Shown in pieces: positions 2,000-33,549 of a stretch of 64,000 nucleotides of DNA. Position 1 is the stretch's first letter. The number at the start of each line of letters is the position of its first letter. Made by a program: the position numbers and the translations under genes. The DNA comes from Balneola sp. (lineage in GTDB: Bacteria; Bacteroidota; Rhodothermia; Balneolales; Balneolaceae): contig JAEPPZ010000004.1 of assembly GCA_017640785.1 (NCBI GenBank), forward strand, positions 68,314-132,313. The letters run 5' to 3'. The notes beneath the pieces were generated by a model that had not been told where the DNA came from, searched no databases, and saw nothing but the letters and a program-made list of their open reading frames with translations.

Positions 2000-2073
2000 T
2001 GCGTCCTACTAGATTCGAACTAGTGACCTCTGCAATGTCAATGCAACGCTCTAACCAACTGAGCTAAGGACGC
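2000..2073 (-). tRNA. tRNA-Val (anticodon GAC)
   Basis: On the minus strand the seven-base acceptor arms gcgtcct and aggacgc pair perfectly, followed by discriminator A. The D-arm carries TAGCTCAGTTGGTTAGAGC, the anticodon stem is ttgca/tgcag around loop ttGACat, and the T-arm contains ttcgaat. The anticodon GAC reads valine codons. CCA is not encoded, as the genomic bases after the discriminator are CAT. It sits between the left-edge secreted protein and nusB. Confidence 0.95.
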
Positions 2074-2107
2074 TTTTGAAAGCGAACAAATATAATGAGA
2101 TTTATGC

Positions 2108-2137
2108 TTTAGGTAAAAGTTAGTTTTCGTATCTTTA
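2108..2137 (+). promoter_or_regulatory. Possible Bacteroidetes-type promoter of nusB
   Basis: TTTA, 18 bases, then TATCTTTA lies 26 bases upstream of the nusB ATG. This fits the -33/-7 pattern (TTTG ... TAnnTTTG) of the primary sigma factor in the Bacteroidota lineage, with two deviations. The clearer example near 61842 has the same 18-base spacer. Confidence 0.45.
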
Positions 2138-2162
2138 CAGCTCATTAAAATTGTTATTTGGC

Positions 2163-2624
2163 ATGATCAACCGCAGACACGTTCGGGAAACTGTACTTCA
2201 GGCACTTTACGCACTCAAACAGAGTGGCGATTCAGTTCAATATATAACTGATTCTGTTATAAAAGATGCACTTGGAACCGAAAAAGAAGCTAGGCGTTTC
2301 GCAGAAAAGCTCTTTTTCAGAACTTTAGAAAATGAGCCTGAATTAGATGAGGTGATCATTAAGCATATCAAAAACTGGGAAATTCAACGATTGGCATTGA
2401 TAGATCGTCTGATCCTTAAAATGGCTTTATGTGAATTTCTTTATTTCGATGAAATCCCTACTAAAGTAACTATTAATGAAGCTATCGAGATCGCAAAAAA
2501 ATTCTCTACAGGAAAGTCAGGACGTTTTGTGAATGGAATTCTGGACGCTTCATTAGAAGACCTGTCAAAATCTGACAGAATTAATAAAAAGGGCAGGGGC
2601 TTAATCGATCATACTGTCAAATAA
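2163..2624 (+). CDS. nusB: Transcription antitermination factor NusB
   Basis: A 153-residue all-helical protein starting MINRRHVRETVLQALYAL, the typical NusB N-terminus (arginine-rich RNA-binding helix). Conserved family segments include DRLILKMALCEF and VTINEAIEIAKKFS followed by GRFVNGILD near the C-terminus. NusB binds boxA RNA with S10 (NusE) and supports rRNA antitermination. The frame can be extended four codons upstream to a TTG, but the ATG at 2163 matches the family start. ychF follows after 37 bases and may be co-transcribed. Confidence 0.95.
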   Translation: MINRRHVRETVLQALYALKQSGDSVQYITDSVIKDALGTEKEARRFAEKLFFRTLENEPELDEVIIKHIKNWEIQRLALIDRLILKMALCEFLYFDEIPTKVTINEAIEIAKKFSTGKSGRFVNGILDASLEDLSKSDRINKKGRGLIDHTVK

Positions 2625-2661
2625 CCCTTCTATCAAGATCTAACTTACACAAGTAAATACT

Positions 2662-3756
2662 ATGAGTTTAAAATGTGGCATAGTTGGTTTGCCAAATGTT
2701 GGAAAATCAACGCTTTTTAATGCACTAAGTAATGCAGGAGCCGAGTCCGCTAATTTTCCGTTTTGTACAATCGATCCAAACGTTGGATTAGTGCCAGTCC
2801 CGGATGCTAGGTTAACTAAATTGGCAACTCTTGCAAGTTCTGCAAATGTAATTCCTACCACTATTGAGTTTGTTGATATAGCCGGTTTGGTAAAAGGGGC
2901 TTCCGAAGGAAAAGGAAAAGGAAATGCATTTCTGTCTCATATTCGAGAAGTGGATCTGATAATTCATGTAGTACGTTGTTTTGATGACGATGATATCATT
3001 CATGTGGAAGGTGGGATTGATCCCGACAGAGATATCACCATTATTGAAGAGGAACTGATTCTCAAAGATCTTGAAAGCATTGAAAAGAGAGTTGAGAATC
3101 TAAAGAAACAATCCAAAAGTGGAGACAAAGCAATGAAGGCTCAGCTTGAAGTTGCGGAACGTCTCAGGGAACACTTAGAAAATGGTAAATCAGCACGCTT
3201 GTTCGAAGTGACTCCTGAAGAAAAAGTGGCATATAATGATTTGATGCTGCTTTCAAGTAAACAAGTGTTATATGCTTGCAATGTTTCAGAGACTGATCTG
3301 GATAGCGGAAACGAATATGTAGATACAGTGAAGTCTATTGCTGCAAAGCACGATGATGAGATCGTTATGTTCTGTGCTAAAATTGAAGCCGAGATCGCAG
3401 AATTAGATCCTGATGAAAAGGAAATGTTTCTTGAGGAACTTGGATTAAAAAGTGCTGGCCTAGACCGTTTGATAAATTCTGCTTATAAGGAACTTGGATT
3501 AATAACCTATTTCACTGTCGGACCAAAGGAAGCAAGAGCATGGACGATTAAGAAAGGAACAAAAGCTCCACAAGCCGCCGGTGTTATTCACACAGATTTT
3601 GAAAGAGGTTTTATCAGAGCTGAGACCATTTCATATGATGATTATGAAAAATATGAAACTGAGAAAGCTGCTAAAGAAGCCGGAAGAATGAGACAGGAAG
3701 GAAAGGAATATGTAGTAAGTGACGGAGATGTAATGTTATTTAGATTTAATGTTTAG
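2662..3756 (+). CDS. ychF: Redox-regulated ATPase / ribosome-binding GTPase-like YchF (OBG family)
   Basis: 364 residues, the normal YchF length. Walker A GLPNVGKST lies at residues 9-17, with the family signature NFPFCTIDPNVG just after it and DIAGLVKGASEGKGKGNAFL as switch II. The C-terminal TGS domain begins near residue 280 (LITYFTVGPKEARAWTI) and ends with the conserved GKEYVVSDGDVMLFRFNV-type tail. YchF is a universally conserved ribosome-associated P-loop NTPase that prefers ATP and is linked to stress responses and translation. Confidence 0.97.
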   Translation: MSLKCGIVGLPNVGKSTLFNALSNAGAESANFPFCTIDPNVGLVPVPDARLTKLATLASSANVIPTTIEFVDIAGLVKGASEGKGKGNAFLSHIREVDLIIHVVRCFDDDDIIHVEGGIDPDRDITIIEEELILKDLESIEKRVENLKKQSKSGDKAMKAQLEVAERLREHLENGKSARLFEVTPEEKVAYNDLMLLSSKQVLYACNVSETDLDSGNEYVDTVKSIAAKHDDEIVMFCAKIEAEIAELDPDEKEMFLEELGLKSAGLDRLINSAYKELGLITYFTVGPKEARAWTIKKGTKAPQAAGVIHTDFERGFIRAETISYDDYEKYETEKAAKEAGRMRQEGKEYVVSDGDVMLFRFNV

Positions 3757-27133: not shown

Positions 27134-27531
27134 AATAAAAGCATTTGTAGTTCAAATTTTAAATAGAAAAGCTCCGGAAAACCAATCTAACAACCCGTAG
27201 AAGAAACTTATCACTTGTAACGAGACCAATACAGGGATTACCTATTAATAAACAATGATTTGTGAAAAAATGCAAGAAGTATAAATAAAAGGAATACCCG
27301 GGATTCAGTTTATTTTTCTTTGATCATTTCTTTTAACCTTTTGTCATTTCGACCGGTGGGAGAAATCTGAAGATCGTTAACAAAGCCGCTAGTATTTAAA
27401 CTGCAGTAGAGCTTTGAAACAATCTTCAAGTAAACAAGCAAAGACTTCAGTCCGCAGTGCCTGAAGTTAGTTAAGCTATAGGGAGCAGGAGCTCCTGCTA
27501 TGCCTTCCCAAGCAGGAACTTGGGACGGAGG
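27134..27531. other. Intergenic stretch with REP-like hairpins, no gene seen
   Basis: About 400 bases without a credible frame. The left part (27134-27420) is AT-rich with nothing recognisable. The right part holds three adjacent inverted repeats (described at 27444-27525). I looked here for a second attC site that would close the cassette array and did not see one. Confidence 0.6.
27444..27525. repeat. Cluster of three REP-like inverted repeats
   Basis: acttcag/ctgaagt arms at 27444-27450 and 27461-27467; a perfect 16-base palindrome agcaggagctcctgct at 27484-27499; and tcccaag/cttggga arms at 27506-27512 and 27519-27525. The spacing and GC-rich arms in AT-rich surroundings resemble REP/BIME units. 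A RAYT gene is present at 12740, giving a plausible source of mobilisation. Confidence 0.7.
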
Positions 27532-27699
27532 TTAAGCTTCAGTAAATTTCACTTTATGTTCATTCATGAAGTCCTTTATTTTATCAATATGTATACAATG
27601 ACCAACATGAAGAATAGCACTTTCCTTAATTTTCTTTTTTTGGCCATCACGTATGACTTCTAAATCTACATCAAAATTGAGGTCTAGATGTTTAGTCAT
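27532..27699 (-). CDS. Small 55-residue protein, last gene of the accessory operon
   Basis: Starts at ATG 27699 overlapping the stop of the preceding gene (ATGA). The sequence begins MTKHLDLNFDVDLEVIRDG and continues with a lysine-rich turn and ILHVGHCIHIDKIKDFM, ending KFTEA. No signal peptide or TM segment is present and no family is recognised. The one-base overlap with the upstream gene is the main reason to believe it is translated. Confidence 0.65.
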   Translation of the reverse strand: MTKHLDLNFDVDLEVIRDGQKKKIKESAILHVGHCIHIDKIKDFMNEHKVKFTEA

Positions 27700-28469
27700 T
27701 GATTGCACACCCTTGCTTTAAATATTGAAATTTCATTTGGTTTGAAACCAGATATGCTATTATAAATATCCATTTGCAATATTTTTTCATTGAGCCCCCC
27801 GATTGATAACAATGCGCTATCTAATATGTGATATTCAGTTGCTTTGTCAATATCTAGCAACTCCTTTAAATTACTTTCATGCTTAAAAAGGTCATCAGTA
27901 GTTAAATGTGTATTAACTTCAATTTGGCTAGCATCAATTTCAATATTTAATAGGTTCTTAGTCTTAATACAAATTGCTTCTCTGAGGCTATTACTGTTAG
28001 GTGTAACATCGCTTCTAAAATCATTTTTTAAATTATCTATGCATTCTTCAGGATATGATGTGACTATTGAGTTAAGTTGATTTTCCAAAAGGTTAAATTG
28101 ACGTTTAGATATATCACAATCCTCTTTTATTTCTTTAATGTTAGTTTTAAAAAGGTGGGAAGGATCTGTTCCAAATGCTTTTAATTCAGAGAAGCCAACC
28201 AAGTGTAATAAGTCTTTATTCTTGGAACCAATAGCTATTTTATCATTATGAATCTGAATAACCCCAGACTTAAGTAGATTCATAGTTGATTCAAACCCAA
28301 TAGTGTTTAGAAGAATGGGTATTTCCTTTAACCTGCTTGATTCGATAACCAAGTTTTCAAAAAGAATTAGTTTTTCAACAAGCTCTGGCAAAGAAAGAGT
28401 TAGATTACCTTTGTCATCTTCATCGATGAGTTTAGCAAAATTTCTAAGTCGAATATCTCCATTTCCCAT
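27696..28469 (-). CDS. Hypothetical 257-residue protein of the accessory operon
   Basis: A soluble, mostly helical protein with a leucine-rich N-terminal half (SLPELVEKLILFENLVIESSRLKEIP) and no recognised catalytic motif. It lies 12 bases behind the 96-residue gene and overlaps the 55-residue gene. The base composition is more AT-rich than the flanking core genes. The context behind an integron cassette suggests an acquired accessory function, possibly defence, but nothing in the sequence proves it. Confidence 0.75.
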   Translation of the reverse strand: MGNGDIRLRNFAKLIDEDDKGNLTLSLPELVEKLILFENLVIESSRLKEIPILLNTIGFESTMNLLKSGVIQIHNDKIAIGSKNKDLLHLVGFSELKAFGTDPSHLFKTNIKEIKEDCDISKRQFNLLENQLNSIVTSYPEECIDNLKNDFRSDVTPNSNSLREAICIKTKNLLNIEIDASQIEVNTHLTTDDLFKHESNLKELLDIDKATEYHILDSALLSIGGLNEKILQMDIYNSISGFKPNEISIFKARVCNQ

Positions 28470-28481
28470 TGAACAAAGTTT

Positions 28482-28772
28482 TTAATAGTCTTCTAACAAC
28501 TCAGATAATTGTTTTAGCTTGGCATGAATTTCTATCCAGCTAGTACTGGTCATTAAGCCTAGCAGCTCATAATCGGAAAAACTAACATTTGAAGGAATGA
28601 AATCTTTAATATCTGGATTAGTTTCTCTAGCTTTTTCAAGTATGGCATTAATATTTTTACCATAATCCTCCGACGGCAACTTTGATTTTTCTTTTTCGGA
28701 CATTGACTCAATTGAGGATATGAGTCCAGAAGTTTTCTTTAATAAAATTTTGTTTACTTCAATTTCAGACAT
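28482..28772 (-). CDS. Small helical protein of the accessory operon
   Basis: 96 residues starting at ATG 28772, 8 bases inside the end of the upstream membrane-protein gene. The composition is charged and helical (Ser/Lys/Glu-rich), with a C-terminal amphipathic stretch WIEIHAKLKQLSELLEDY. No known domain is recognised. Its position between the membrane coiled-coil protein and the 257-residue protein suggests it bridges or regulates them (inference). Confidence 0.75.
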   Translation of the reverse strand: MSEIEVNKILLKKTSGLISSIESMSEKEKSKLPSEDYGKNINAILEKARETNPDIKDFIPSNVSFSDYELLGLMTSTSWIEIHAKLKQLSELLEDY

Positions 28773-29241
28773 GTTTTTCTAAATTTTTCGTCAAGTTTTC
28801 GAGTTTTGTGGATAGCGTGTCAATCTCATTTTCCAGTTGACCGATTTGGGTTCGATTTTGATGGGTTAAGTTTTTCTTGAGTGTCGTTATTTCATTCTTT
28901 TTATGTTGAATCAGCAAATTGAAAGATTGGATTAGGTTAGACTGTAATTGAAGTGATGTATTTTTGTCTAAAATTTCTACAGATTCCTTATGCACATCTC
29001 TTGTAAGTTCAAGTTCTTTTCTTTGTGCAATAAGCTCTTGTCTTTGTAACAGGATAGTAACTATTACACCTAGAAATGCTAAACCACCAAATAATGAGCT
29101 AACGGGATTAAAAAGCTCCGCAATATTTTGAACATCATTCGGGTATACTGACTTCAATATATATGGACTCACAATCCAAATTGCAGTTATTATTATAACT
29201 CCAATAATTGTGATTGTTGCTAATTTGGAATTATCCTTCAT
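28765..29241 (-). CDS. Two-TM, coiled-coil protein, first gene of the accessory operon
   Basis: 158 residues. TM1 spans about 8-30 and TM2 about 43-66 (NPVSSLFGGLAFLGVIVTILL), followed by the charged QRQELIAQRKELELTRD and a long coiled coil to the C-terminus. The second TM plus QRQEL/RKEL heptads is a pattern often seen in small membrane proteins of gene cassettes and putative phage abortive-infection proteins; I cannot assign it more closely. The ATG lies about 33 bases after the integron crossover point at 29274/29275. Confidence 0.8.
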   Translation of the reverse strand: MKDNSKLATITIIGVIIITAIWIVSPYILKSVYPNDVQNIAELFNPVSSLFGGLAFLGVIVTILLQRQELIAQRKELELTRDVHKESVEILDKNTSLQLQSNLIQSFNLLIQHKKNEITTLKKNLTHQNRTQIGQLENEIDTLSTKLENLTKNLEKHV

Positions 29242-29268
29242 ATCTGTTGAGGTTCATTCTAGAAAGAC

Positions 29269-29396
29269 ACATAACGACCCTGCGTTTAAGCGGCGAGGGT
29301 TTTCGGTTTTTCTGAAAGTAACAGAATTAATCAGTTACCTGAAAATTAAATTATGCGGAGCCACTACCCGAGTCCGACTTGAAACGCTTGTTATAT
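29269..29396 (-). mobile_element. Integron attC recombination site
   Basis: On the minus strand, R'' core ATATAAC (29396-29390) and R' core GTTATGT (29275-29269) bound 128 bases. The inner arms AAGCGTTTcAAGtCGG and CCGCTTAAACGC fold together, leaving an unpaired C and T, the extrahelical bases that direct integrase to the bottom strand. Further arms and a terminal gtaac/gttac stem lie between. This architecture is diagnostic of attC sites. No integrase is visible in the window. Confidence 0.88.
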
Positions 29397-29693
29397 GGCG
29401 CACTGATTTAGCTATTGGCAACATTCCAAGAAAAAGACTCTTTGAAATCGTTGAAGCAATTTTCGCAAACCCAATGATTTCCATCTTCAGTTACAAAACC
29501 TTCATGAAGCGCATCTGGAATAGAATCTTTTTCCGCGAACTTATTCCAACAAAACTCACAATGATCGTGGTCCCAATCTTCATTTGGTTGAGAATACTTT
29601 TTTTTAGAAAGAGTAACTCCTTTTAAGTATTTCTCTTGGTTGAATATTCGTGGATCAGTTTGCATTGGTACAAATTTAAGCTAAGCCATATAA
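29275..29693 (-). mobile_element. Single complete integron gene cassette
   Basis: The segment from the G/TTATAT junction at 29694/29693 to the crossover in the attC R' core at 29275/29274 is a 419-base cassette containing one 85-codon gene followed by attC. The upstream junction has the GTTATAT core but no attC arms before it. The cassette therefore looks inserted at a secondary site or left over from a larger array. Confidence 0.75.
29408..29665 (-). CDS. Cassette-borne small zinc-ribbon-like protein
   Basis: 85 residues. Two CxxC knuckles, CEFC (in DHDHCEFCWNKF) and CENC (in HWVCENCFNDF), could bind one zinc ion. Similar small proteins with DHDHCEFCW and EGYTTED-like segments are common in integron cassettes, where their role is unknown. 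It ends 12 bases before the attC site, the standard cassette arrangement. Confidence 0.85.
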   Translation of the reverse strand: MQTDPRIFNQEKYLKGVTLSKKKYSQPNEDWDHDHCEFCWNKFAEKDSIPDALHEGFVTEDGNHWVCENCFNDFKESFSWNVANS

Positions 29694-29832
29694 CATAATA
29701 TTATCCAAACAAGGATTTTCCCAGTTTGTCCCGATAAAATCTAAAAATTGACTCTAAAATACTAGTAAACAAGGAAGTTAGGATTTTATCATGATAAAAA
29801 TGGTTTCTAAAATTCCCGAATAAATCTCAAAT

Positions 29833-31299
29833 TCAATCAAACCTACCAATCAAATCTACTGCATTAACAGCACTTTGTATCACCAAGGGAATGCCACCAC
29901 CGGGATGAGTAGAGCCACCTACAAAGTACAAACCTTCAATTTCGCGGGATTTGTTTCTGGGTCGGAGGAAGGCTGAGAATTTGTCGTTGGAAGAAGTTCC
30001 GTAAATACTGCCTTTGTTGGACAAGTATTTATGGTAGAAATCTTTTGGGGTGATTTCAGATCGATACTTTATATGTTTCGTAAGATCGGTCAACCCACGA
30101 CTTTCTAATTCCCTTATTACCTTATCTCCATAATCACTTTTATCCCAACTAAAGGATTCACTCAAATACGGAGCATTCACCAACACAAATAAATTGGAAC
30201 CATCTTCAGGAGCGTGATCTTTATCAGTGAAAGAAGTATTAGCGATGTAAATGGTCGGATCGTCGGGCATGATCTTATCATCAAAGATCTGTTTGAATTC
30301 CAGTTCATAATCAGCGGAAAAGAAAATGTTGTGATGAATAAGCTGCTCGTATTGTTTGTCGATGCCTAATAACATCACAAATCCCGAACAGGAGGGTTCT
30401 AATTCTTTTTGTTTTTCTTTTCGTTTGGCTGAAATACTGAAATCATCAATCAAATTTAGTATGGTTTCCGAAGCATCACTGTTGGCAACCACAAGATCGC
30501 ACTCTAACAACTCTCCGGATTCAGTTTCCACTCCTTTAATTTTGCCTTCCAAAACATGAATACGGTCTACTTTTGCATTGTATTCAATAGAAGCACCCAA
30601 AGAGATCGCCAGATCACGTAAACATTCTGCAACTCTGTATAATCCGCCTTTGATGTAATAGCCGCCTTCATTCAGTTCAATATGCGGAACCACATTCAGC
30701 GTAGCCGGAGCCTGATAGGGAGAAGATCCGTTGTAGGTAGTAAAGCGTTTAAAGAACTGTTGCAGGTGTGGAGATTCAAAATAGGAGTCGACACGTTTAC
30801 TGACCGTTGTAAAGGCGTCGATCCCTAAAAAAGAAAACAGATTGAGATCTTTCAGATCCGAAAAATTGTATAGTGGATTCAATACAAATGCATTCCGGGT
30901 CTTTTTGTCCAGAGACTCAGCATATTCCAAAAATTTGATGTAGGATTTCTCATCATCAGGAGCCATTCTGCGGATCTCTCTCAACATCTGCGCACGATCG
31001 CTGTAATTATCAAACTGCATTCCATCCTGAAAGAAATACCGACAGTTTATATCCAGTGGAACCATTTCAAGCTCTTTAGAAAGAGATGTTCCACAATCCT
31101 GCAGTAATCCGTCCAGAATATAAGGCATGGTAAACAGGGAAGGACCGGTATCGAAACGAAATCCGTCCGCTTCGATCTCATTCATCTTGCCGCCCGCACT
31201 GTCATTCTTTTCCAGAATGGTTACTGAATGACCTTGTTTGGCAAGCAAGCACCCTGCGGATAATCCTCCGATTCCTGCTCCGATTATGATTATATTCAT
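29833..31299 (-). CDS. Phytoene desaturase/carotenoid dehydrogenase-type FAD oxidoreductase
   Basis: 488 residues. The N-terminus is a dinucleotide-binding motif GAGIGGLSAG with E30 after strand 2 and NDSAGGKMNE. FRFDTGPSLFTMP is a CrtI-family signature, and the C-terminus has the second signature GLYFVGGSTHPGGGIPLVIQSA. Members desaturate phytoene or hydroxylated carotenoids (CrtI/CrtD). No crtB or other carotenoid gene is in the window, so the exact step is uncertain. Confidence 0.92.
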   Translation of the reverse strand: MNIIIIGAGIGGLSAGCLLAKQGHSVTILEKNDSAGGKMNEIEADGFRFDTGPSLFTMPYILDGLLQDCGTSLSKELEMVPLDINCRYFFQDGMQFDNYSDRAQMLREIRRMAPDDEKSYIKFLEYAESLDKKTRNAFVLNPLYNFSDLKDLNLFSFLGIDAFTTVSKRVDSYFESPHLQQFFKRFTTYNGSSPYQAPATLNVVPHIELNEGGYYIKGGLYRVAECLRDLAISLGASIEYNAKVDRIHVLEGKIKGVETESGELLECDLVVANSDASETILNLIDDFSISAKRKEKQKELEPSCSGFVMLLGIDKQYEQLIHHNIFFSADYELEFKQIFDDKIMPDDPTIYIANTSFTDKDHAPEDGSNLFVLVNAPYLSESFSWDKSDYGDKVIRELESRGLTDLTKHIKYRSEITPKDFYHKYLSNKGSIYGTSSNDKFSAFLRPRNKSREIEGLYFVGGSTHPGGGIPLVIQSAVNAVDLIGRFD

Positions 31300-32827: not shown

Positions 32828-33297
32828 TTCTGATCCCGAAGTTTCGGGACGAAGAATCCCGGTTACGAAGCAGATTCTTTGTTTCTGAGTAGTTCGCCCT
32901 TCCTTGCATAAGGAGGGGAATTCTAGAGTTGATTCATACTTTTATCAACGAGTCCTCCTCCTGTTGTAGGAGGAGACAGAGGAGGTCTTTCTTTAGGATC
33001 GTGAGTACATTTAATTGGTAATATACTTTTGTACCGATACTGAGCTTCCTCAGCACAGGCTCCAGTACCAAAAACTCCCGACAAGAATTATTGGCGCGAA
33101 CTCCATTGCATCGACTAATCATTACAAAAGGTCTTCGGACGTATGATACACATTAACGAATCAGCCTGAATGTAATGATTGCTCCTTCGGAGCCGTCAAT
33201 TTCATTACGTTCTTGTTTCGCCAATAATTCTAAGGGTCGGTGTAGTTGGAGGCTTTATCTGAAATTGTCAGCATTATAAGCAAGACAGTATTTGTAA

Positions 33298-33327
33298 GTG
33301 AATCATCTAACATCTACAGGGATGACC
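33298..33327. repeat. Decayed partial copy of the fold-back element arm
   Basis: The reverse complement of this stretch reads ggtcatccctgtagatgtta, then gatgattcac. This matches both the ggtcatccc block and the gtagatgttag arm start of the 32679-32827 element, with the pieces rearranged. It supports repeated insertion or rearrangement of this repeat family in the desert. Confidence 0.5.
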
Positions 33328-33549
33328 AATCAGGAGGCGGGTTCCAAATACTACTACTTCATGAACTCAATTCAGGTTTTATAACCTAAAAGTTAGTAAA
33401 TCATCCTGTGGATACTTCCGAAGGATCTTCAAAGTCTGAAAAGAAGTAGATACTTATTTCCGGGAAAGCGCTCGTCCAAATTATACTTTTGAACTAGAAA
33501 GGTGCTGGTCCAAGCGAGACGGTAGAACTAGAATGGTTCTCAGCAATGA

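Follow-up and report, generated by a model that had tools for sequence, protein, structure and literature searches.

How does an integron gene cassette come to lie, complete and with a well-formed attC, in a stretch of DNA that carries no integron integrase? The question is raised by a 64-kb stretch from a Balneola genome (64,000 nucleotides, hereafter the window), which is part of contig C13 in an assembly of 18 contigs that is 99.7% complete. An earlier note, made from the sequence of the window, had placed the cassette apparently outside an integron, and had read it as a single-cassette CALIN or as an insertion at a secondary site.

The cassette and the segment behind it

The cassette occupies window positions 29275–29693 on the minus strand and is 419 bp long, from T29693 to G29275. 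Its parts, and the segment behind it, are the following:

29275–29693, minus strand: complete integron gene cassette, TTATATGGC...attC...G, with a 5′ end perfectly complementary to its own R″ and without counterpart in the sister species
29408–29665, minus strand: cassette ORF of 85 amino acids with two CxxC pairs (DHDHCxxC ... WxCxxC), from translation and alignment of relatives
29264–29399, minus strand: attC, from a covariance model and direct reading of the arms
29399–29390, minus strand: attC R″, GCCATATAAC, by direct reading
29374–29387, minus strand: attC L″, GCGTTT-C-AAG-T-CGG, with two extrahelical bases, 29381 and 29377
29293–29282, minus strand: attC L′, CCGCTTAAACGC, by direct reading
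29268–29275, minus strand: attC R′, G^TTATGTG, with the G at 29275
27535–29274, minus strand: tail segment starting at G^TTATGTGTC, with ORFs of 158, 96, 257 and 58 amino acids and no detectable attC

The 3′ end of the ORF is followed by an attC with R″/R′ cores, L″/L′ arms and extrahelical bases, both cassette ends lie at a precise G^TT, and the circular form restores the R′/R″ pairing. GTTATATGGC, the start of the cassette counted from the G of the site, pairs with the R″ of the same cassette over 10 nt without a mismatch, as would be expected had the cassette arrived as a circle. All that the earlier note had described here, namely a complete 419-base cassette, GTT crossover points on both sides, and an attC with paired arms and two extrahelical bases, could be read at 29264–29693.

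With a covariance model trained on 24 attC sites from the genus and family, a check that the earlier note had recommended, the window attC scores 140 bits, but the sequence is itself a member of the training set; independent support comes from an attC of the genome's main cassette array (C18:72042–72167), which is 94% identical to it over 126 bp (E 6e-51). Thermodynamic single-strand folding did not separate the window attC from shuffles (z about −1.1 to −1.2), and its identification therefore rests on sequence and covariance. Neither intI nor a second attC was found within the 64-kb window by the covariance model and family search, in agreement with the earlier note; both are present elsewhere in the genome.

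The single ORF of the cassette encodes the 85-residue CxxC protein that the note had reported, and this protein is probably zinc-binding. The residues invariant among its relatives include DHDHC, CxxC and W.C..C. One relative was found among 96 related genomes (G068, 51%), where it lies between two weak attC matches, and five more occur in MAGs named Phycisphaerae, Acidobacteriaceae, Holophagales, Acholeplasmataceae and Actinomycetota. Pfam, NCBIfam and PADLOC yielded no family above cut-off. An AlphaFold model (pLDDT 83) suggests a small zinc-binding fold, with weak RING/C1-like matches, and a fold search with this model returned no PDB match below E 0.1. The human zinc-finger and bromodomain proteins that appeared as PDB sequence matches look like chance.

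Behind the cassette, homology to the sister species G007 picks up again at window position 27535. In the intervening 27535–29274, a second attC was found neither by the covariance model nor by a structural R″/R′ scan. This segment is probably cassette-derived, a further cassette or an array remnant, because a 30% relative of its 257-residue protein sits between two attC matches in the genome's own C11 array. Its 158-residue protein (28765–29241) has membrane segments and a coiled coil, gives a weak PADLOC match (PDC-M09A, E 0.004), and is reminiscent of phage abortive-infection proteins. Further on, the counterpart of window positions 27313–27528 is present twice in G007 (L065:1752–1971 and 2001–3081), adjoining a lipoprotein-like gene that bounds the array.

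The attI-like site behind crtI

On its other side, the cassette adjoins a short intergenic unit and a conserved gene:

29691–29714, minus strand: core of the attI-like site, CCTTGTTTGGATAATATTATG^TTA, with the G at 29694, from a 24-nt pattern search
29694–29832, minus strand: orphan attI unit, from the crtI stop codon to the crossover point, 139 bp, with gap-free conservation
29833–31299, minus strand: crtI-like phytoene desaturase/FAD amine oxidoreductase gene (PF01593, E 1e-31)

The crtI gene is co-directional with the site and upstream of it, and is orthologous in all seven of the other genomes of the genus. At G^TTA the cassette meets CCTTGTTTGGATAATATTATG, which lies 139 bp past the stop codon of crtI; the sequence directly in front of the cassette reads AATCCTTGTTTGGATAATATTATG^TTA. 

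A search for intI elsewhere in the genome, also proposed in the earlier note, found a single integron integrase above the curated cut-off, at C18:74583–75524 (432 bits, cut-off 265), with domains PF00589 and PF13495. A main array of more than 10 attC sites (C18:59.9–72.8 kb) is divergent from it. The linked attI has GCTGTACGGATAATATTATG^TTA at its core, and direct reading gives ...AAGCTGTACGGATAATATTATG^TTATAGTGC. A complete integron, with intI, attI and attC array in cis, is thus present on C18 and not at the window locus. Inside the main array, on the strand opposite to the cassettes, are genes for a MerT-like transporter with an HMA domain and a mercuric-reductase-like protein (HMA and Pyr_redox; L059:11947–14215).

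The window site and this intI-linked attI have the core GGATAATATTATG^TTA in common, and agree in each of the 13 nt up to and including the crossover G. The outer part of the window site (CTTGTTTGG...) is closer to the attI of another IntI clade (G010, G037) than to the resident one. The site shares sequence with an intI-adjoining site that receives a first cassette, but not its position in cis, intI being on another contig. Positions −92 to 0 of the unit are found again, at 86%, at a site behind a PDZ gene in G001. The unit shows no special RNA fold (z −0.2), and may also carry the terminator or regulatory signals of crtI. Elsewhere in the window, 33064–33435 contains stretches that recur at 88–92% in other contigs and species (L061, L063, L064, L068), as a dispersed repeat.

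The window genome (G000) was compared with seven sister species, each represented by one genome, and at this sampling no polymorphism within a species was seen. Cassettes are found at the same base behind crtI in five species (G000, G001, G002, G003 and G007), and in each of them the first cassette complements its own R″ by 10–12 nt. None of the seven sister species has the window cassette; four of them hold other cassettes at the same G, and the five crtI arrays have no cassette ORF in common. The segment is thus not fixed in a lineage without integrase and without cassette-free species, the pattern that the earlier note had set against its own reading. In place of the secondary site of that note, the comparison shows an attI-like target that sister species have conserved at the corresponding position. 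Homologues of some of these cassettes occur in other arrays: for a G002 cassette, at a different G007 locus (80%), and for G007 cassettes, in the main array of G003 (68%) and in that of G000 (66%).

Among the four closest species (G001, G002 and G007 against the window), the 139-bp unit is 92–99% identical with zero gaps, crtI coding identity is 87–92%, and a neighbouring intergenic region taken as control shows 77–85% identity with 26–78 gap columns. Past the G, identity drops to about 42–56%. Judged from sequence, non-coding DNA that equals or exceeds the adjoining gene in conservation, up to a recombination point, would be expected of a dock that is being maintained.

The remaining sister species differ. 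G005 has TATAATAGTATGAATTA at the crtI position, a decayed form without GTT, and no intI above cut-off and no attC were found anywhere in its genome. In G004 the crtI intergenic region is replaced, leaving a TAATAATATG^TTA remnant with no attC in the region, and no attC was found at the crtI locus of G006. G007 has lost its integron integrase and kept its attC arrays, including the cassettes at the crtI site; present integrase activity is therefore not needed for cassettes to be there. Its former attI (L066:4225) retains about 78 bp of upstream similarity.

attI-headed arrays in the genome and the family

In the window genome, the covariance model detected attC sites on C18, C13 (the window), C16, C11 and C1. 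Five of the attC-bearing loci have no adjoining intI, namely C13, C16, C11, C1 and a second part of C18. An intact attI-like site stands at the head of four of these five, and the C1 site is partly deleted and degenerate. The description of the cassette as lying outside an integron is correct in that no intI is nearby, but incomplete, given the integron on C18 and the four further intI-less loci. Likewise, the term single-cassette CALIN fits the one attC and the distant intI, and falls short of the default of two attC sites. On C1, the partly deleted unit (L062:1250–1307) is followed by an attC at 649–760, near the contig start, and is preceded by a gene that agrees at its 3′ end with the PDZ-like gene of the G001 site. 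On C18, the two arrays are separated by a beta-lactamase-fold gene (L059:5995–7986), encoding a 663-residue serine beta-lactamase-fold protein (PF00144) and divergent from the attI-headed second array; a nearly identical sequence is found upstream of the site in G007 (L066).

The 24-nt pattern, with up to 3 mismatches allowed, gave 42 matches in 19 of 97 genomes, and a reversed control pattern none. Some matches adjoin intI (G037, G010, and a truncated intI in G024), and most do not; orphan sites of this kind are present in further genera of the family, and the host gene upstream of most orphan sites is co-directional. Aligned at the G, the consensus of linked sites (TgTTCGgATAATATTATG^TTAT, a set that takes in the attI of G007, whose intI is gone) and that of orphan sites (CTTGTTCGGATAATATTATG^TTA) are nearly equal. 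Similarity upstream of the sites extends over 90–146 bp in many pairs, and in G037 an orphan site has 97% identity to the intI-linked attI over 131 nt. The attI core differs by IntI clade, with TGTCGCATATTAATATG and ATTCCAAATAATTATATG types besides that of the window, and since each clade has its own core, the orphan sequences are probably attI rather than a generic motif. Orphan arrays that start with a core of the TGTCGCATATTAATATG type are found as well (C11 and C16 of the window genome, G001 C19 and G002 C8), the ATTCCAAATAATTATATG type is confined to a few sites in G049, and looser matches to the attI patterns of other clades were near control level.

A same-strand attC was found for 28 of 40 orphan sites within the fetched stretch, usually about 6 kb. 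Over 35 site–attC pairs from the whole family, the contiguous complementarity between a site and its own first attC had a median of 11 nt; at least 7 nt were complementary at 21 of the 26 testable orphan sites, against 8% of mismatched pairs. As far as such sequence matches can tell, the attI-like sites are true crossover points.

A blind test was also performed, in which clusters in other genomes were picked by the attC model alone and their upstream regions scanned with a weight matrix. A strong attI-like site was located upstream of 7 of 16 usable clusters, with none of 200 shuffles as good and the opposite strand never comparable; it was missing at the other nine. One more cluster of this test, on G001 C9, resembles by eye the attI of G056. 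attI-headed arrays are thus frequent, but not universal.

In G024, four orphan attI sites are like the truncated intI–attI region of that genome, and some reach the intI 5′ end. At its loci (L163, L164, L165, L166, L075), attI is present in several almost identical copies, of which some retain 5′ remnants of intI, next to the truncated intI, and a complete intI of a different clade is present on its contig C54. The genus covariance model found no attC downstream of these copies.

Origin of the cassette and comparison with known systems

I regard it as probable that the window cassette was inserted by attC x attI recombination into an orphan, or "satellite", attI, with the integron integrase acting in trans. 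The orphan attI would be a copy of the attI platform, downstream of the co-directional crtI and without an integrase gene beside it. An IntI acting in trans, plausibly the one encoded on C18 of the same genome, would have opened the circular 419-bp cassette at its attC and joined it at the G^TTA of the site, and read-through from crtI may express it. I infer both the action in trans and that the crtI site is still usable. The different cassettes at the same spot in sister species suggest that one integrase is able to serve several chromosomal docks. It is plausible that the satellites arose by duplication of an intI–attI region followed by trimming, since orphan sites of G024 include the intI 5′ end, and G007 kept an attI without intI. 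No intI trace was found at the crtI site.

Alternatively, a full integron may once have stood downstream of crtI, its intI since deleted and its array now decaying without further exchange. CALINs have been proposed to be degraded integrons (PMC9024848), and such decay would match the G024 sites with their intI 5′ ends, the 78 nt of upstream similarity kept by the G007 attI after intI loss, and the many orphan sites whose match is to the attI of an IntI clade not resident in the genome. For the origin of the satellites, this account may hold in part. At the crtI locus it is unlikely: there is neither room nor remnant for an intI between the crtI stop codon and the site, the spacing from stop codon to G is 141–152 nt at four loci (crtI, the PDZ gene, C16 and C11), the 139-bp unit is at least as conserved as coding DNA, and the wholly different cassette content in five of five species suggests activity after speciation.

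An ordinary attG insertion, in which IntI placed one cassette at an arbitrary non-classical GTT site, would suit a solitary cassette outside an integron, and such insertions are established for IntI; Loot et al. reportedly described in 2024 the insertion of cassettes by IntI at attG, non-classical GTT sites outside the integron. It is nevertheless very improbable here, as five species use one and the same base, the flank has extended attI-like sequence in common with intI-linked sites, and the motif recurs at array heads, with no match for the control pattern. In E. coli, attG insertions are described as scattered over many loci (PMC12444791). That a piece of the main array was spread by homologous recombination or transposition, with the attI-like unit as hitch-hiker, appears extremely improbable: orphan and linked attI are alike over 90–290 bp in some genomes, and a dispersed unit is common to the crtI and PDZ sites, but the first cassettes are precisely joined and differ between sites, and no transposase was seen at the junction.

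Recombination into a satellite attI can tentatively be extended to a distributed integron, a generalization that I hold with slightly less than even confidence. In this family, one integrase would serve several attI docks scattered over the chromosome, most of them just downstream of a host gene in the same orientation, and each dock would collect and exchange cassettes of its own; selection would maintain the docks, and many CALINs would be live satellites, not ruins. CALINs are common, and are usually explained as integrons in decay or as attG insertions by chance. Should they often prove to be attI-headed and filled in trans, an integron would consist of several platforms instead of a single locus, its cassettes could draw on more than one host operon for expression, and programs that leave attI out of account would miss this structure. 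The crtI site, which in sister species is differently filled, decayed or missing, offers an ordered test series.

In itself, the window cassette shows nothing unusual when set beside IntI-type integron cassettes: the attC anatomy, the G^TT crossover, the single ORF and the complementarity of 5′ end and R″ in the circular form are the same. The locus resembles the CALINs of IntegronFinder (PMC9024848), described as probably degraded integrons, in that attC occurs without intI nearby, as at five loci of this genome; it differs in having one recognisable attC instead of the default two, and the loci of this genome start with an attI-like site. Since IntegronFinder searches attI in class 1 only (PMC9024848), it is blind to such orphan heads. 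Xanthomonas CALINs occupy conserved loci at a distance from intI, and are set apart from the scattered attG insertions (PMC12444791). The resemblance lies in clusters of cassettes that are remote from intI and hold the same positions in different species; the account, in the part available, reports no attI at those clusters, whereas here the attI-like unit is conserved and the cassettes turn over. attG sites are likewise places outside the integron where IntI puts cassettes, but are reportedly neither attI nor attC, whereas the window site is attI-like and conserved.

attI-like sequences are known as integrase off-targets (PMC10127599), and the open-licence literature on multiple, duplicated and orphan attI yielded no report of attI copies heading CALINs or separate arrays. 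Partial attI copies are known from class 1 and 2 integrons as Delta-attI-type gene cassettes (PMC12901181), in which, too, part of an attI up to the crossover G is displaced from its usual position; the class 2 core, AATAAAATG^TTRRRY, resembles ATTATG^TTA. In those cassettes, the partial attI stands in for the 3′-terminal attC and lies within an array, whereas the attI-like unit of the window follows a host gene and heads the array.
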